Assembly (NCBI GenBank): GCA_949398305.1
Contig: CASLVD010000006.1
Coordinates: 1 to 48,726, forward strand
Length of the DNA stretch: 48,726 nt
Direction: 5' to 3'
DNA from: an uncultured Candidatus Melainabacteria bacterium
GTDB taxonomy: Bacteria; Cyanobacteriota; Vampirovibrionia; Gastranaerophilales; Gastranaerophilaceae
A program made the translations under genes and the position numbers. The notes under the pieces are model-generated. The model saw nothing but the letters and a program-made list of their open reading frames with translations. It made no database searches and was not told the origin of the DNA. How positions within the stretch are numbered: position 1 is the first letter of the stretch; each line of letters starts with the position of its first letter. Of this stretch, positions 16,229 to 44,563 are shown in pieces.

Positions 16229-17092
16229 TTATTTTGCAGTTTTTAAAACATATCTTGCCGCCGCTGTTGCAGGTTCAACAATTCCGTCATGGAATCTGAT
16301 CGGATATACGTCAGTGAGGTGTTTTGTATCATTTTTTACAATACAGGTTTTATTTGCATTTAGTGATTCTGAACCTTTAGAACAACTAACTTCTTTGTTT
16401 GGTAAATTCGTTCCGTTAACATCAATAAAACCATAGCACATACTTGTTCCGTTACCATCGGCAGATTCTGTTTTTATTGATGTACCTATCCTTAAACTGC
16501 ATCCGTTATTTTGACCTAAAACATTGACAAATCCTATTATTATGCCGTCAGAGAGTACATATGCCATGTAATTTGATAATTCTTTTCCCTGAGCATTAAA
16601 GAAATATGAGTTTTCAATGTTGTAATTTTGTTGAGAACCTTTTTTATTTATTTTTATATCAGTAGCTTTTGTATAAAATGTTGCACCTGTTAATGTGCCG
16701 TTCAAAATTGCGCAAATAGTTTGAGTTTGTTCGGGGTTCTCATTTGCTGCGTTTGCTCCGCATTGTGCTGAGATACCTGCATAATCAAACCCGTATTGAG
16801 CTTGTGACATTCTTGCGGCTTGAGACAGAGTAGATATTGTTTTCTTTAAACGTGAACGATATTGTTGTGAGCGGGTGTTTGCAATAAGTGTCGGAATTGT
16901 CATAGCTGCTACGACACCGATTATACCAAGGGTGATTAAAACCTCAGCCAAAGTAAAACCCTCCTCGGCCGGAGTGGGCACTTTGCTACAAACCTTAGCA
17001 CCTATTACATCAATCCACGACCTGCGGTGCTCAACCGGTGGCATAGCTACGTGTGTAGCACCTTCTGCTAAAGTAAAACCTTTTTTATACAT
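16229..17092 (-). CDS. Type IV pseudopilin with an in-frame leader insertion
   Basis: Pilin-like protein whose N-terminus carries GFTLAE twice: at residues 5-10 and again at 45-50. Only the second runs into the hydrophobic helix VLITLGIIGVVAAMTIPTLI, so the mature protein probably begins at the second Phe. The 34 residues between (11-44, starting GATHVAMPPVEHRR) come from a GC-rich insertion. The globular domain has many Cys. Its VDVNGTNLPN motif matches the paralogues, but the following GKD is missing. AGGAGG precedes the ATG. It is divergent from an HTH gene across 111 bp that contain a perfect 26-bp palindrome. Confidence 0.85.
   Translation of the reverse strand: MYKKGFTLAEGATHVAMPPVEHRRSWIDVIGAKVCSKVPTPAEEGFTLAEVLITLGIIGVVAAMTIPTLIANTRSQQYRSRLKKTISTLSQAARMSQAQYGFDYAGISAQCGANAANENPEQTQTICAILNGTLTGATFYTKATDIKINKKGSQQNYNIENSYFFNAQGKELSNYMAYVLSDGIIIGFVNVLGQNNGCSLRIGTSIKTESADGNGTSMCYGFIDVNGTNLPNKEVSCSKGSESLNANKTCIVKNDTKHLTDVYPIRFHDGIVEPATAAARYVLKTAK
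16943..17080 (-). repeat. GC-rich insertion flanked by FTLAE-coding repeats
   Basis: Two 18-bp copies of the GFTLAE codons (17063-17080 and 16943-16960, 15 of 18 bases the same) enclose 102 bp (16961-17062) with about 56% G+C by my count, far above its surroundings. The reading frame is kept. The insert holds GCTAC-ACAC-GTAGC, a small inverted repeat, near its beginning. Since the leader ahead of the second FTLAE should be cut off, the insertion need not alter the mature pilin. Confidence 0.75.
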
Positions 17093-17142: not shown

Positions 17143-17168
17143 AATTATTAGCATGCATGCTAATAATT
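17143..17168. promoter_or_regulatory. Perfect 26-bp palindrome, likely operator of the 17-kb module
   Basis: Half-site AATTATTAGCATG followed by its exact complement. It spans the spacer and -10 region of the minus-strand pseudopilin promoter and touches its -35 box. The likely binder is the divergent HTH protein at 17204, by position. Confidence 0.75.
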
Positions 17169-24954: not shown

Positions 24955-25167
24955 ATGAATGAAATTAAGGCAAAAATTAAAATGCTTGTTATATCTCGGG
25001 GAATGACGCTGAAATCTCTTGCTGAAAAACTTACTGTGTTAACAGGAGAGGAATATTCTTATAACAGTCTTTTGGGAAAATTAAACCGAGAAAGTTTATC
25101 ATTAAAAGAAGCAGGATATATTGCTAAGATTTTGGACTATAAAATAGAATTTATTAGTATAAAATAA
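24955..25167 (+). CDS. Small HTH regulator between two pseudopilins
   Basis: A 70-aa protein with an HTH-like helical fold (MLVISRGMTLKSLAEKL ... YNSLLGKLNRESLSLKEAGYIAKILDYKIEFI). It resembles the 44339-44563 protein in length and in the pattern of an N-terminal charged helix, then S-L-A-(E/Q), then K-L-R/N-R, then a final ILxYxxxF. It lies divergent to one pseudopilin gene and directly upstream, on the same strand, of another (25180). TATAAT (24940-24945) ends 9 bases before the ATG with no ribosome site, so a leaderless mRNA is possible. Likely local regulator. Confidence 0.8.
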   Translation: MNEIKAKIKMLVISRGMTLKSLAEKLTVLTGEEYSYNSLLGKLNRESLSLKEAGYIAKILDYKIEFISIK

Positions 25168-32953: not shown

Positions 32954-33274
32954 ATGCGTTATATTATTACTCAGGAAAGAAACAATGTGCCGGCAGGTTT
33001 TAGGAATCTGTCTGATGATGAAATCGCAAAAGATTTTTTGAAAATGGATGTTGATAAAAGTTATTTCATTTCAAAAAATGAGTGGATGTTGAATTTTATA
33101 AAATTATTGGGTAATGATTTAGCATCTTTAGAAAAAGATGGACCAGATTCTCTTATGACAAAAATCCGTGAATTATCTGATGAATTTGATAAATATGATT
33201 TAGATGGAAATAAATATATTGATTATATAGAATATAAAAATTTCTTATCAGATAATATTTACATTTCGGAATAA
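32954..33274 (+). CDS. EF-hand calcium-binding protein
   Basis: A 106-aa protein with two canonical 12-residue EF-hand loops: DVDKSYFISKNE (about residues 32-43) and DLDGNKYIDYIE (about 83-94). Both keep acidic or polar ligands at loop positions 1, 3, 5 and 9 and Glu at 12. There is no signal peptide, so it probably works in the cytoplasm as a calcium sensor or buffer. GGAG lies ahead of ATG 32954, 11 bases after the HEAT-like gene. Confidence 0.85.
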   Translation: MRYIITQERNNVPAGFRNLSDDEIAKDFLKMDVDKSYFISKNEWMLNFIKLLGNDLASLEKDGPDSLMTKIRELSDEFDKYDLDGNKYIDYIEYKNFLSDNIYISE

Positions 33275-33275
33275 T

Positions 33276-33980
33276 TTATAACATGAATGAACATCCCCAA
33301 CCTGAACCATGGATACAATCATTAACATAATTATCCTTGGTTAAATGTGGAGTTGAGTTTGTTCCATTCTTAGTACAACTATTTGGAATAATAGTTGTTT
33401 TATTATTGGCAAAACCTGTATACGGGCTTGTTGCCCCATCTGTAAAATACATAAAATAAATATCCCTGCCAATAGTATTTGGACCTTTTATACCGTTAAC
33501 ATCTACAAATACCTGCTTGTAACAGTTAAAATTTACCATACTTCCGTTCATTAGGGTATAAGTAAGTGGTATATAACCTGTATTTAAATCCTGTTTTTCT
33601 TTCTGCTTGTTATACCAGTTATGCTGGTAATCCCAATATGTAGTTCGGGAATTTTTAGGCCACTCTCCAGAGTTGCCATATTTTATATCTTCGGTAACTT
33701 CGTCACATTTTATTCCGGAAGTTTGTACTTTCATATACCTTTGAAGCTTGCAAAAATATACAGGCATTTGAACCCAATCAATCGAAGTATAGGTTTCTTC
33801 AGTGTCATTGTATACTAATTTCATTGCTTGGCTTATGTCTGATATTGATTTTTTATATGCGGCTCTAAATTGTTTATCCTGTGTATTTGTTATAAGCGCC
33901 GGTATTGTTAATGCTGCAACAATACCTATTATGCCTAAAGTTATCAAGACTTCTGCCAGTGTGAAACCTGTGCTTTTCAT
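33276..33980 (-). CDS. Type IV pseudopilin
   Basis: A 234-aa pilin-like protein with the leader MKSTG and the helix FTLAEVLITLGIIGIVAALTI. The globular part is rich in Tyr and Trp, with Cys pairs including CxKxxxN near the end, and the shared VDVNGIKGPNTIGRDIY motif (GRD in place of GKD). It ends with the unusual CIHGSGWGCSFML. GGAGG precedes the ATG. It abuts the EF-hand gene tail to tail and is divergent from the HTH gene at 34087 across 106 bp that hold a perfect 32-bp palindrome. Confidence 0.9.
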   Translation of the reverse strand: MKSTGFTLAEVLITLGIIGIVAALTIPALITNTQDKQFRAAYKKSISDISQAMKLVYNDTEETYTSIDWVQMPVYFCKLQRYMKVQTSGIKCDEVTEDIKYGNSGEWPKNSRTTYWDYQHNWYNKQKEKQDLNTGYIPLTYTLMNGSMVNFNCYKQVFVDVNGIKGPNTIGRDIYFMYFTDGATSPYTGFANNKTTIIPNSCTKNGTNSTPHLTKDNYVNDCIHGSGWGCSFML

Positions 33981-34007
33981 AAAACCTCCATGATAAAAAG
34001 TTTTTAT

Positions 34008-34039
34008 TGTTTATTACAATATATATATTGTAATAAACA
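34008..34039. promoter_or_regulatory. Perfect 32-bp palindrome, likely operator of the 34-kb module
   Basis: Half-site TGTTTATTACAATATA followed by its exact complement. It starts directly below the minus-strand -10 box and covers the expected transcription start of the pseudopilin. The HTH protein at 34087 is the likely binder. Confidence 0.8.
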
Positions 34040-34040
34040 T

Positions 34041-34069
34041 ATAATAAATTGTAGAATAAGTTTTGTCAA
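34041..34069 (-). promoter_or_regulatory. Promoter of the 33276-33980 pseudopilin
   Basis: Minus strand: TTGACA (34064-34069), 17-bp spacer, TATTAT (34041-34046). It overlaps, face to face, the region from which the HTH gene would be read. Confidence 0.7.
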
Positions 34070-34074
34070 GTGAT

Positions 34075-34080
34075 TAGAAT
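34075..34080 (+). promoter_or_regulatory. -10-like hexamer of the HTH gene, leaderless spacing
   Basis: TAGAAT ends 6 bases before ATG 34087 with no ribosome site, the same spacing as in the 17-kb and 48.6-kb modules. Confidence 0.45.
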
Positions 34081-34086
34081 TTTTCT

Positions 34087-34311
34087 ATGGATAAAAAAGA
34101 AATTTTAAAAGAATTTGGCAGAAATTTAAAAGCTGAGCGAAATCGAGCGGGGTTATCTCAAGAGCAGCTTGCTGAAAAAATCGGGGTTTCATATGGGCAG
34201 GTTGTTGGAATGATAGAACGAGGCGAAACAAATACATCATTATCTGTGATTGTTGGAATTATGAATGCTTTAGATTTAGATTTTGATAAGTTATATGATA
34301 GAAAATTATAA
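34087..34311 (+). CDS. Small XRE-family HTH regulator
   Basis: A 74-aa protein that is one canonical HTH_3 (lambda Cro/C1) domain: LKAERNRAGLSQEQLAEKIGVSYGQVVGMIERGETNTSLSVIVGIMNAL. No ligand or oligomerisation domain is attached. It is divergent from the 33980 pseudopilin and followed directly by a terminator, so it is a single-gene unit. Its class differs from that of the regulators at 24955 and 44339. Confidence 0.9.
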   Translation: MDKKEILKEFGRNLKAERNRAGLSQEQLAEKIGVSYGQVVGMIERGETNTSLSVIVGIMNALDLDFDKLYDRKL

Positions 34312-34316
34312 AAAAA

Positions 34317-34350
34317 GGCGGCTTTGAAATTTTTCAAAGCCGCCTTTTTT
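34317..34350. terminator. Bidirectional terminator between the HTH gene and secF
   Basis: Perfect 13-bp stem GGCGGCTTTGAAA / TTTCAAAGCCGCC (34317-34329 and 34332-34344), six A or more before and six T after. It can end both the plus-strand HTH gene and the minus-strand secDF unit. Confidence 0.9.
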
Positions 34351-34365
34351 AGTTAAAAACTAAGC

Positions 34366-35337
34366 TTAAGCTGCAGTTTGAGTTTTTTTACCTTTTCTTT
34401 CTTCCCAGAAATCAACAATCATACTGCAGAAGAATATACTTGAATAAACACCAACGATTACACCTAACATCATTGCTAAAACGAAGTCTTTTGTAGTTAC
34501 TCCGCCAAAGAAGTATAATGCTGCAAGTGTTATAAATACTGTCAATGAAGTATTTATACTTCTTGCAAGTGTTTGGTTAACTGAAGCGTCAACGATTTCT
34601 CCGAATGTCATTTTCTTACCGTAATATCTTAAGTTTTCACGGATTCTGTCAAATGTAACGATCGTGTCATTGATAGAAAAACCGATGACTGTTAATATTG
34701 CGGTTAAGAATAAACCGTCAATCTGAACATCGCAGAATATTCCAAGTAATGAGAATATACCAGTTACAAATAAGACATCGTGTACAAGACCTAAAATGGC
34801 CGCAACCGCATATTCAAACTTAAATCTTAGTGAAATATAAACAATCATACCTAGAATTGCAAGTGCTAAGGCAATTAAAGACATTTTGAATAATTCTTTA
34901 CCAAGAGTCGGACCGACAGATGATACTTGAATAAGTTCAGCATCTTTATATTCACTTTTTACTGTGTTTGTAATTTGTTCAGCAGTTTCAGAACCTTCAT
35001 CGATAAATTTAGTTCTGATAGAAATTACTGATTTAATATTGTTATTTTCAGCAGTCGGGTTAACGTTAAGAATTTGGATATAAGGGTTTTGGACACCTAT
35101 TTTATCTAAATCTTCTCTTGTTTTAGATACTGCTTCGTTATCTATTGTTTCCGGAACACCGTATTGAAGAATTGTTCCGCCTGTGTAGTCAATACCAACT
35201 TTAACAGGAGCGTGTGTCGGGTAAGTTACCATTGAATAAATCATTGCGGCAATTCCCGGTAAAAGTAAGCATGCGGATAATACCATCCAAAGAATTCTGT
35301 ATTTTACAACATGCACTGTTTTATTGAAATTAAACAT
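34366..35337 (-). CDS. secF: Protein translocase subunit SecF
   Basis: Inner-membrane partner of SecD that uses the proton gradient to aid late steps of Sec export. The first membrane helix is near residues 14-32, the periplasmic domain starts with VGIDYTGGTILQYG, and the transport core has LGLVHDVLFVTGIF, GFSINDTIVTFDRIRENLR and NTSLTVFITLAALYFFGG. Length 323 aa is typical. It follows secD by 21 bp. Confidence 0.96.
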   Translation of the reverse strand: MFNFNKTVHVVKYRILWMVLSACLLLPGIAAMIYSMVTYPTHAPVKVGIDYTGGTILQYGVPETIDNEAVSKTREDLDKIGVQNPYIQILNVNPTAENNNIKSVISIRTKFIDEGSETAEQITNTVKSEYKDAELIQVSSVGPTLGKELFKMSLIALALAILGMIVYISLRFKFEYAVAAILGLVHDVLFVTGIFSLLGIFCDVQIDGLFLTAILTVIGFSINDTIVTFDRIRENLRYYGKKMTFGEIVDASVNQTLARSINTSLTVFITLAALYFFGGVTTKDFVLAMMLGVIVGVYSSIFFCSMIVDFWEERKGKKTQTAA

Positions 35338-44313: not shown

Positions 44314-44338
44314 TTTAAATATATAAATGGAGTGGAAT

Positions 44339-44563
44339 ATGTCTATTATTGTTGAATTAAAAAAGGTTTTATTGGATGTTAATGTCAGCTTAAGCGAGTT
44401 GGCGCAAAGTCTTGGCAAACGACTTAGTAAACCATATTCAATGCAAAACCTTTCTAATAAATTACGTAACGAAACTATTACTCACCGTGAGATGCTTATA
44501 ATAGCTGATATTTTGGGGTATGAATTAAAATTTGTCAGAAAAAATGAACAAAATAAGTTATAA
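44339..44563 (+). CDS. Small HTH regulator
   Basis: A 74-aa protein of the same type as the 24955 regulator: charged first helix, SLSELAQSLGKRL, NLSNKLRNETITHREMLIIADILGYELKF. ATG 44339 is chosen over ATG 44327 because GGAG lies 6 bases ahead of it. It is divergent from the 44230 pseudopilin gene. Probable local regulator with its own operator. Confidence 0.8.
   Translation: MSIIVELKKVLLDVNVSLSELAQSLGKRLSKPYSMQNLSNKLRNETITHREMLIIADILGYELKFVRKNEQNKL

Follow-up and report, generated by a model that had tools for sequence, protein, structure and literature searches.

The perfect 32-bp palindrome at 34008–34039 probably belongs to a two-site operator, from which a small XRE/Cro-C1 regulator would repress the divergent pilin-like gene and may raise its own expression in a switch-like manner. 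The window, which is the whole stretch of DNA that was analysed, is 48,726 nucleotides in length and comes from an uncultured Candidatus Melainabacteria bacterium (Candidatus Gastranaerophilales). Most likely, the XRE protein serves as a private regulator, one per pilin, in a switch of the kind built by restriction-modification controller (C) proteins and by phage lambda. The features of the locus are as follows.

34008–34039, strand-neutral: perfect 32-bp palindrome, TGTTTATTACAATATATATATTGTAATAAACA, between the prepilin-like gene and the XRE gene
34015–34032: O1, putative operator core TACAAT-N6-ATTGTA, 18 bp, centred at −63.5 from the XRE ATG; assigned by conservation and by co-variation with the XRE recognition region
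34036–34053: O2, putative weaker operator AACATA-N6-ATTGTA, centred at −42.5 from the XRE ATG; conserved ATTGTAG half-site, same position in paralogous pairs
34069–34041, minus strand: pilin promoter TTGACA-17-TATTAT, from which transcription is predicted to begin near 34034; hexamers conserved in orthologues
34075–34080, plus strand: TAGAAT, the −10 box assigned to the putative leaderless XRE promoter; 6 nt separate it from the ATG
34087–34311, plus strand: XRE/Cro-C1 regulator, 74 aa, controller-protein-like (Pfam HTH_3; PADLOC Control_protein)
33276–33980, minus strand: prepilin-like protein, 234 aa (Pfam N_methyl; TIGR02532), with a strong Shine-Dalgarno GGAGG
34311–34350: terminator-like hairpin after the XRE gene
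33275–34366: present/absent module (pilin, operators, XRE, terminator); the flanks are contiguous without it in genomes G045, G043 and G029

Organization of the locus

With 11 of 12 positions matched, TTGACA-17-TATTAT on the minus strand is the best promoter match of the region; the palindrome lies downstream of it and over the predicted pilin start, as an earlier note on this DNA had proposed. In orthologues, the pilin −35 and −10 hexamers score 5.96/6 and 5.3/6, respectively, and the XRE −35 scores 2.9/6; no clear −35 is discernible for the XRE. Lying 21 bp closer to the XRE gene than O1, O2 overlaps the −10 of the pilin promoter as well as the zone where the XRE −35 would be expected. The flanking genes encode an EF-hand protein, SecF, SecD, DapA, and DprA-like, HEAT-like and UvrD-type helicase proteins; no restriction-modification genes (methyltransferase or endonuclease) were found among the neighbours examined.

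The palindrome and its conserved core

The palindrome of the earlier note is confirmed: its symmetry is perfect, and chance does not account for it. It is the longest gapless palindrome in the window, followed by one of 26 bp at 17143–17168; about 5e-5 palindromes of its size are expected per window from composition, and 4 Mb of simulated third-order Markov sequence contained no perfect palindrome longer than 24 bp. The inverted repeat of the terminator at 34311–34350 exceeds it in length but has a 2-nt loop. 

Conservation was analyzed across 26 loci with a homologous XRE (74–97% identical), the window counted among them. The core TACAAT-N6-ATTGTA is kept exactly or nearly in these loci, with its centre 63.5 ± 1 bp upstream of the XRE ATG. 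Over the outer 7 bp of each arm, the symmetry is 3.6/7, versus 3.5 for arms randomly paired across genomes (P 0.36), and full arm symmetry occurs in 3 of the 26 loci. The whole 32 bp was therefore rejected as the selected unit, its outer arms having failed this permutation test; the palindrome is perfect over 32 bp in the window, but the conserved unit is the 18-bp core alone.

The same data bear on the suggestion that, within the 5′ leader of the pilin mRNA, the palindrome folds into a hairpin acting on stability or translation. Folded as RNA, the full stem reaches −18.5 kcal/mol (z −5.5), but the transcript from the predicted pilin start begins within the 5′ arm, leaving a stem of −11 kcal/mol. 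Outer-arm symmetry is not maintained, and what evolution keeps is a core that co-varies with a DNA-binding protein, together with a second half-site that precedes the predicted start of transcription, where a copy of the operator lies. We consider such a hairpin very improbable.

The 26-bp palindrome is unrelated, in line with the earlier note; it differs in sequence, stands alongside a different HTH subfamily and is centred at −48.5, not −63.5, from the HTH start. It occupies the −35/−10 spacer of another pilin promoter, and the adjoining XRE is of HTH_26 type. The C84 pair (locus L175), which is related to the 17143 pair, has a different 18-bp palindrome at −47.5.

Co-variation of the operators with the XRE recognition region

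In the homologous loci, O2 has a conserved ATTGTA half-site followed by G and a degenerate left half, with its centre at −42.5. ATTGT-type half-sites are retained where the recognition region of the XRE orthologue contains SYGQV. In loci L207 and L211, where the recognition region reads GFGQH, the ATTGT-type right half-site is lost at both O1 and O2 (AGTGCA/AATGTA and GATGTA/AGTGTA for O1/O2, respectively). Three more distant relatives, with AGKH, have ATGGT at O1 and O2 alike. A second XRE group has the operator TGAACATTATAATGTTCA (TGAACAT..ATGTTCA), which becomes ATGTGATNNATCACAT (ATGTGAT..ATCACAT) in diverged members, and a third group has ATAACTATAGTTAT. The orthologous loci compared here are related by descent and are not phylogenetically independent. 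Since O1 and O2 both vary together with the recognition region, we assign them to the XRE encoded at 34087; the palindrome core is almost certainly its operator, and core conservation and co-variation agree with the partner that the earlier note had named.

That the palindrome serves some other DNA-binding protein, the XRE being nearby incidentally, is highly unlikely; against it stand the co-variation with the recognition region and the fact that different XREs have different adjoining operators. A global operator was also considered and rejected: the exact core occurs three times in the genome, and in a pilin/XRE spacer only at the window locus. As a separate observation, locus L274 of the close relative G045 (compare L275) has an identical XRE protein but lacks the right half of the C59-type O1, which makes it a natural operator mutant.

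The XRE protein resembles controller proteins

By sequence, the closest solved relatives of the 74-aa XRE are the restriction-modification controllers C.BclI (8.9e-8) and C.AhdI (1.3e-6). Its predicted fold (pLDDT 83) superimposes on these two structures with a Z of 11.7 and an rmsd of 1.8 over 69–72 residues, and PADLOC assigns it to Control_protein (1.6e-10). Homologues at 74–97% identity are found nearly all in Candidatus Gastranaerophilales or Candidatus Scatousia MAGs. Residues 22–26 read GLSQE, of which G, S and E are invariant among the orthologues; for C proteins and lambda CI, this stretch has been linked to contact with sigma (PMC4824078).

Two other classes were considered. For a HipB-type antitoxin, the couple_hipB score is 42 bits against a cut-off of 72, and the partner gene encodes a pilin-like protein, not a HipA-type toxin. 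For a prophage repressor of lambda CI type, the 74-aa protein consists of the HTH alone, without a C-terminal oligomerisation/peptidase domain.

Pilin/XRE pairs across the genome

The genome of the window (G000, a 99% complete MAG in 109 contigs) contains 121 N_methyl prepilin starts and about 80 HTH_3 genes, and prepilin numbers range from 3 to 140 across 46 genomes of the genus. We counted 51 divergent pilin/XRE pairs in G000, 25 of them with short XREs (up to 81 aa), these counts varying with the HMM thresholds. The short-XRE pairs share a common layout and differ in operator sequence; as read from the sequences, there are about 50 pilins with a putative private regulator, each pair tested having an operator sequence of its own. 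The account of the earlier note is thereby extended by O2, by the apparently leaderless XRE gene and by these roughly 50 pairs. We found nothing relevant on pilin/XRE pairs in Melainabacteria in the literature searched.

TAnnnT stands exactly 6 nt upstream of the XRE ATG in 14 of the 25 short-XRE pairs (background 7.6%, P 4e-10), and a Shine-Dalgarno precedes 2 of the 25 XREs versus 16 of the 25 pilins. Together, these two features suggest leaderless XRE mRNAs, and the XRE gene of the window looks leaderless as well. Among XREs of other phyla, only 2 of 19 look leaderless and none faces a pilin.

The operators are likewise fixed in position, as judged from statistics that were designed after part of the data had been seen, with the window pairs left out of the key O1/O2 position tests. 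Strong dyads concentrate at −60.5 to −65.5 (8 of 15 within 6 of 30 positions, P 0.004). In the 15 non-window short-XRE pairs with a dyad, resemblance to the O1 of the same pair has a single peak, at −42.5 (P 1.5e-4; P 0.008 without the dyad filter). O1 is centred 63.5 bp before the ATG in the window and 62.5, 61.5 and 64.5 bp before it in C59, C69 and C25, respectively; O2 is fixed at −42.5 while the O1–O2 spacing takes values of 19–22 bp. In 9 of the 25 short-XRE pairs a clear dyad around −63 is lacking, and the geometry was not found in long-XRE pairs or in pairs with XREs of 85–97 aa. A weak, non-significant peak at −42.5 (P 0.07) is seen for XREs of other phyla, and the position may therefore be a general XRE trait.

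Other arrangements were noticed as well. In the pilin/XRE spacer of L147 (G000 C20:14100–16600), a single half-site, GTTATTTATA, recurs in overlapping copies that may make up an operator array of higher density. Another small HTH-like family, with a weak DUF6471 match, is encoded divergently from pilins at 24955–25167 and 44327–44563 in the window, and its relatives are found at several more pilin loci of the genome.

Presence, absence and exchange

The 1.1-kb module is cleanly missing from three relatives. In G045, whose flanks are 94–97% identical in DNA, homology ends at 33274 and restarts at 34367; the segment 33275–34366 is also absent from G043 and G029, and in G005 another pilin/XRE pair occupies the same site. 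Orthologous XREs in other genomes face different pilins: at L190 and L040, XRE identity is 94–97%, and the facing pilins match at ∼30% across most of the chain. The closest relatives of the window pilin (68, 51 and 48%) are located elsewhere; no XRE was recognised near them, one of these loci (L271) ending at a contig end.

Presence and absence of the module, along with exchange of the facing pilins, could speak for the palindrome as the recombination or insertion site of the module, but the module edges at 33275 and 34366 map far from it and none of the module genes was recognised as a recombinase, so that we regard this role as most improbable.

Two further observations concern the coding sequences. 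At L202, the ORF opposite an orthologous XRE and operator is not a pilin and, judged by eye, looks like a glycosyltransferase. In many prepilin genes, the leader region contains an in-frame insert of the form GATHV..PPVEHRRSWIDV..KI(G/C)S..PTPAEEGFTLAEV; examples are 16229–17092 (minus strand) in the window, L084, L087, L137, L142, L145, L155 and L157, and L201 and L208 in other genomes. In these inserts the FTLAE motif is often duplicated, and they resemble palindromic elements inserted into coding genes.

Comparison with known systems

The window XRE is like C.BclI, C.AhdI and C.Esp1396I in size (70–80 aa), sequence and fold, and the two tandem dimer sites upstream of C-protein genes appear to be matched by O1 and O2. 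Unlike C-protein systems, the window XRE is accompanied by no methyltransferase or endonuclease, its divergent output is a pilin, and a genome has dozens of pilin/XRE pairs, whose operators are unrelated to one another.

In lambda, the promoters PRM and PR are divergent and overlapping, and the repressor transcript is leaderless; the activating site of CI (OR2) lies near −42, and a stronger one some two helical turns beyond it. Class II activators, like CI on OR2, contact sigma from near −42. By analogy, O2 at −42.5 of a predicted leaderless promoter would match the geometry of CI on PRM. Unlike lambda CI, the window XRE has no C-terminal oligomerisation/peptidase domain; unlike in lambda, no phage genes were seen beside it, and the starts are ∼53 bp apart.

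The known systems of pilus phase variation operate by DNA inversion, slipped repeats, methylation or attenuation. We saw no instance of these here; the resemblance would lie in a possible ON/OFF variation of the surface. Pilus phase variation has been reviewed (PMC11868660). In C-protein systems, the C transcript is leaderless and the sites come as a tandem pair (PMC4824078). In EcoRV, C protein at its distal, high-affinity site represses the strong met promoter, which is divergent, and also activates the C gene, which the weaker site limits (PMC6237814); the PvuII C system is a hysteretic switch (PMC3695507). The XREs that control the Caulobacter holdfast (PMC10688885), and SinR, are also XRE paralogues in control of a surface structure, but there redundant regulators act on one shared gene set, whereas here each paired pilin would have a private regulator and operator.

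Proposed mechanism

In the mechanism that we propose, an XRE dimer would bind O1, the stronger site, over the pilin start, and a second dimer would join cooperatively at O2, over the pilin −10. Because O1 covers the start and O2 the −10, occupancy of both would shut the strong pilin promoter; repression of the pilin by the XRE is very probable from this arrangement of sites. The weak leaderless XRE promoter, which has no good −35, overlaps the pilin promoter, and bound XRE may boost its own transcription either directly or by displacing the competing pilin polymerase. The chances for such positive self-regulation, suggested by analogy, are about even. Self-activation would create two self-sustaining states, pilin ON with XRE low and pilin OFF with XRE high; this bistability is put forward tentatively.

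A simpler scheme, in which the XRE on O1 and O2 represses the pilin and limits its own gene, as a homeostatic brake and not a switch, has a real though lesser chance of being correct. It agrees with Esp1396I, where the C gene is repressed from the proximal site (PMC4041747), and with the overlap between O2 and the XRE −35 zone. It fits less well with O2 at the sigma-contact position −42.5, a promoter that has no good −35 and the retained GLSQE patch. Owing to these three features and to the EcoRV and PvuII parallels, we favour repression combined with self-activation. The operator, the partner protein, the fixed geometry and the leaderless signature are drawn from sequence, and from them we infer binding, repression, self-activation and bistability.

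Significance

The layout is fixed, with O2 at −42.5, the XRE −10 at −12 to −7 and the pilin −35 17–18 nt upstream of the XRE ATG, so that the operator of each pair can be predicted and tested in E. coli. This gut bacterium has a 1.9-Mb genome with more than 100 pilin-like genes, about half of them with a putative private regulator. It is possible, if on present evidence the less probable outcome, that dozens of orthogonal, bistable C-protein/lambda-like switches operate across the genome, each with its own operator and driving one pilin, so that pilin combinations would vary heritably with no rearrangement of the DNA; the switch would be conserved, the pilin exchangeable, and the 1.1-kb module gained and lost as a unit. 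If true, these loci would amount to a naturally occurring set of orthogonal repressors with their operators, and may provide a mechanism of surface variation in a lineage with little-known biology.
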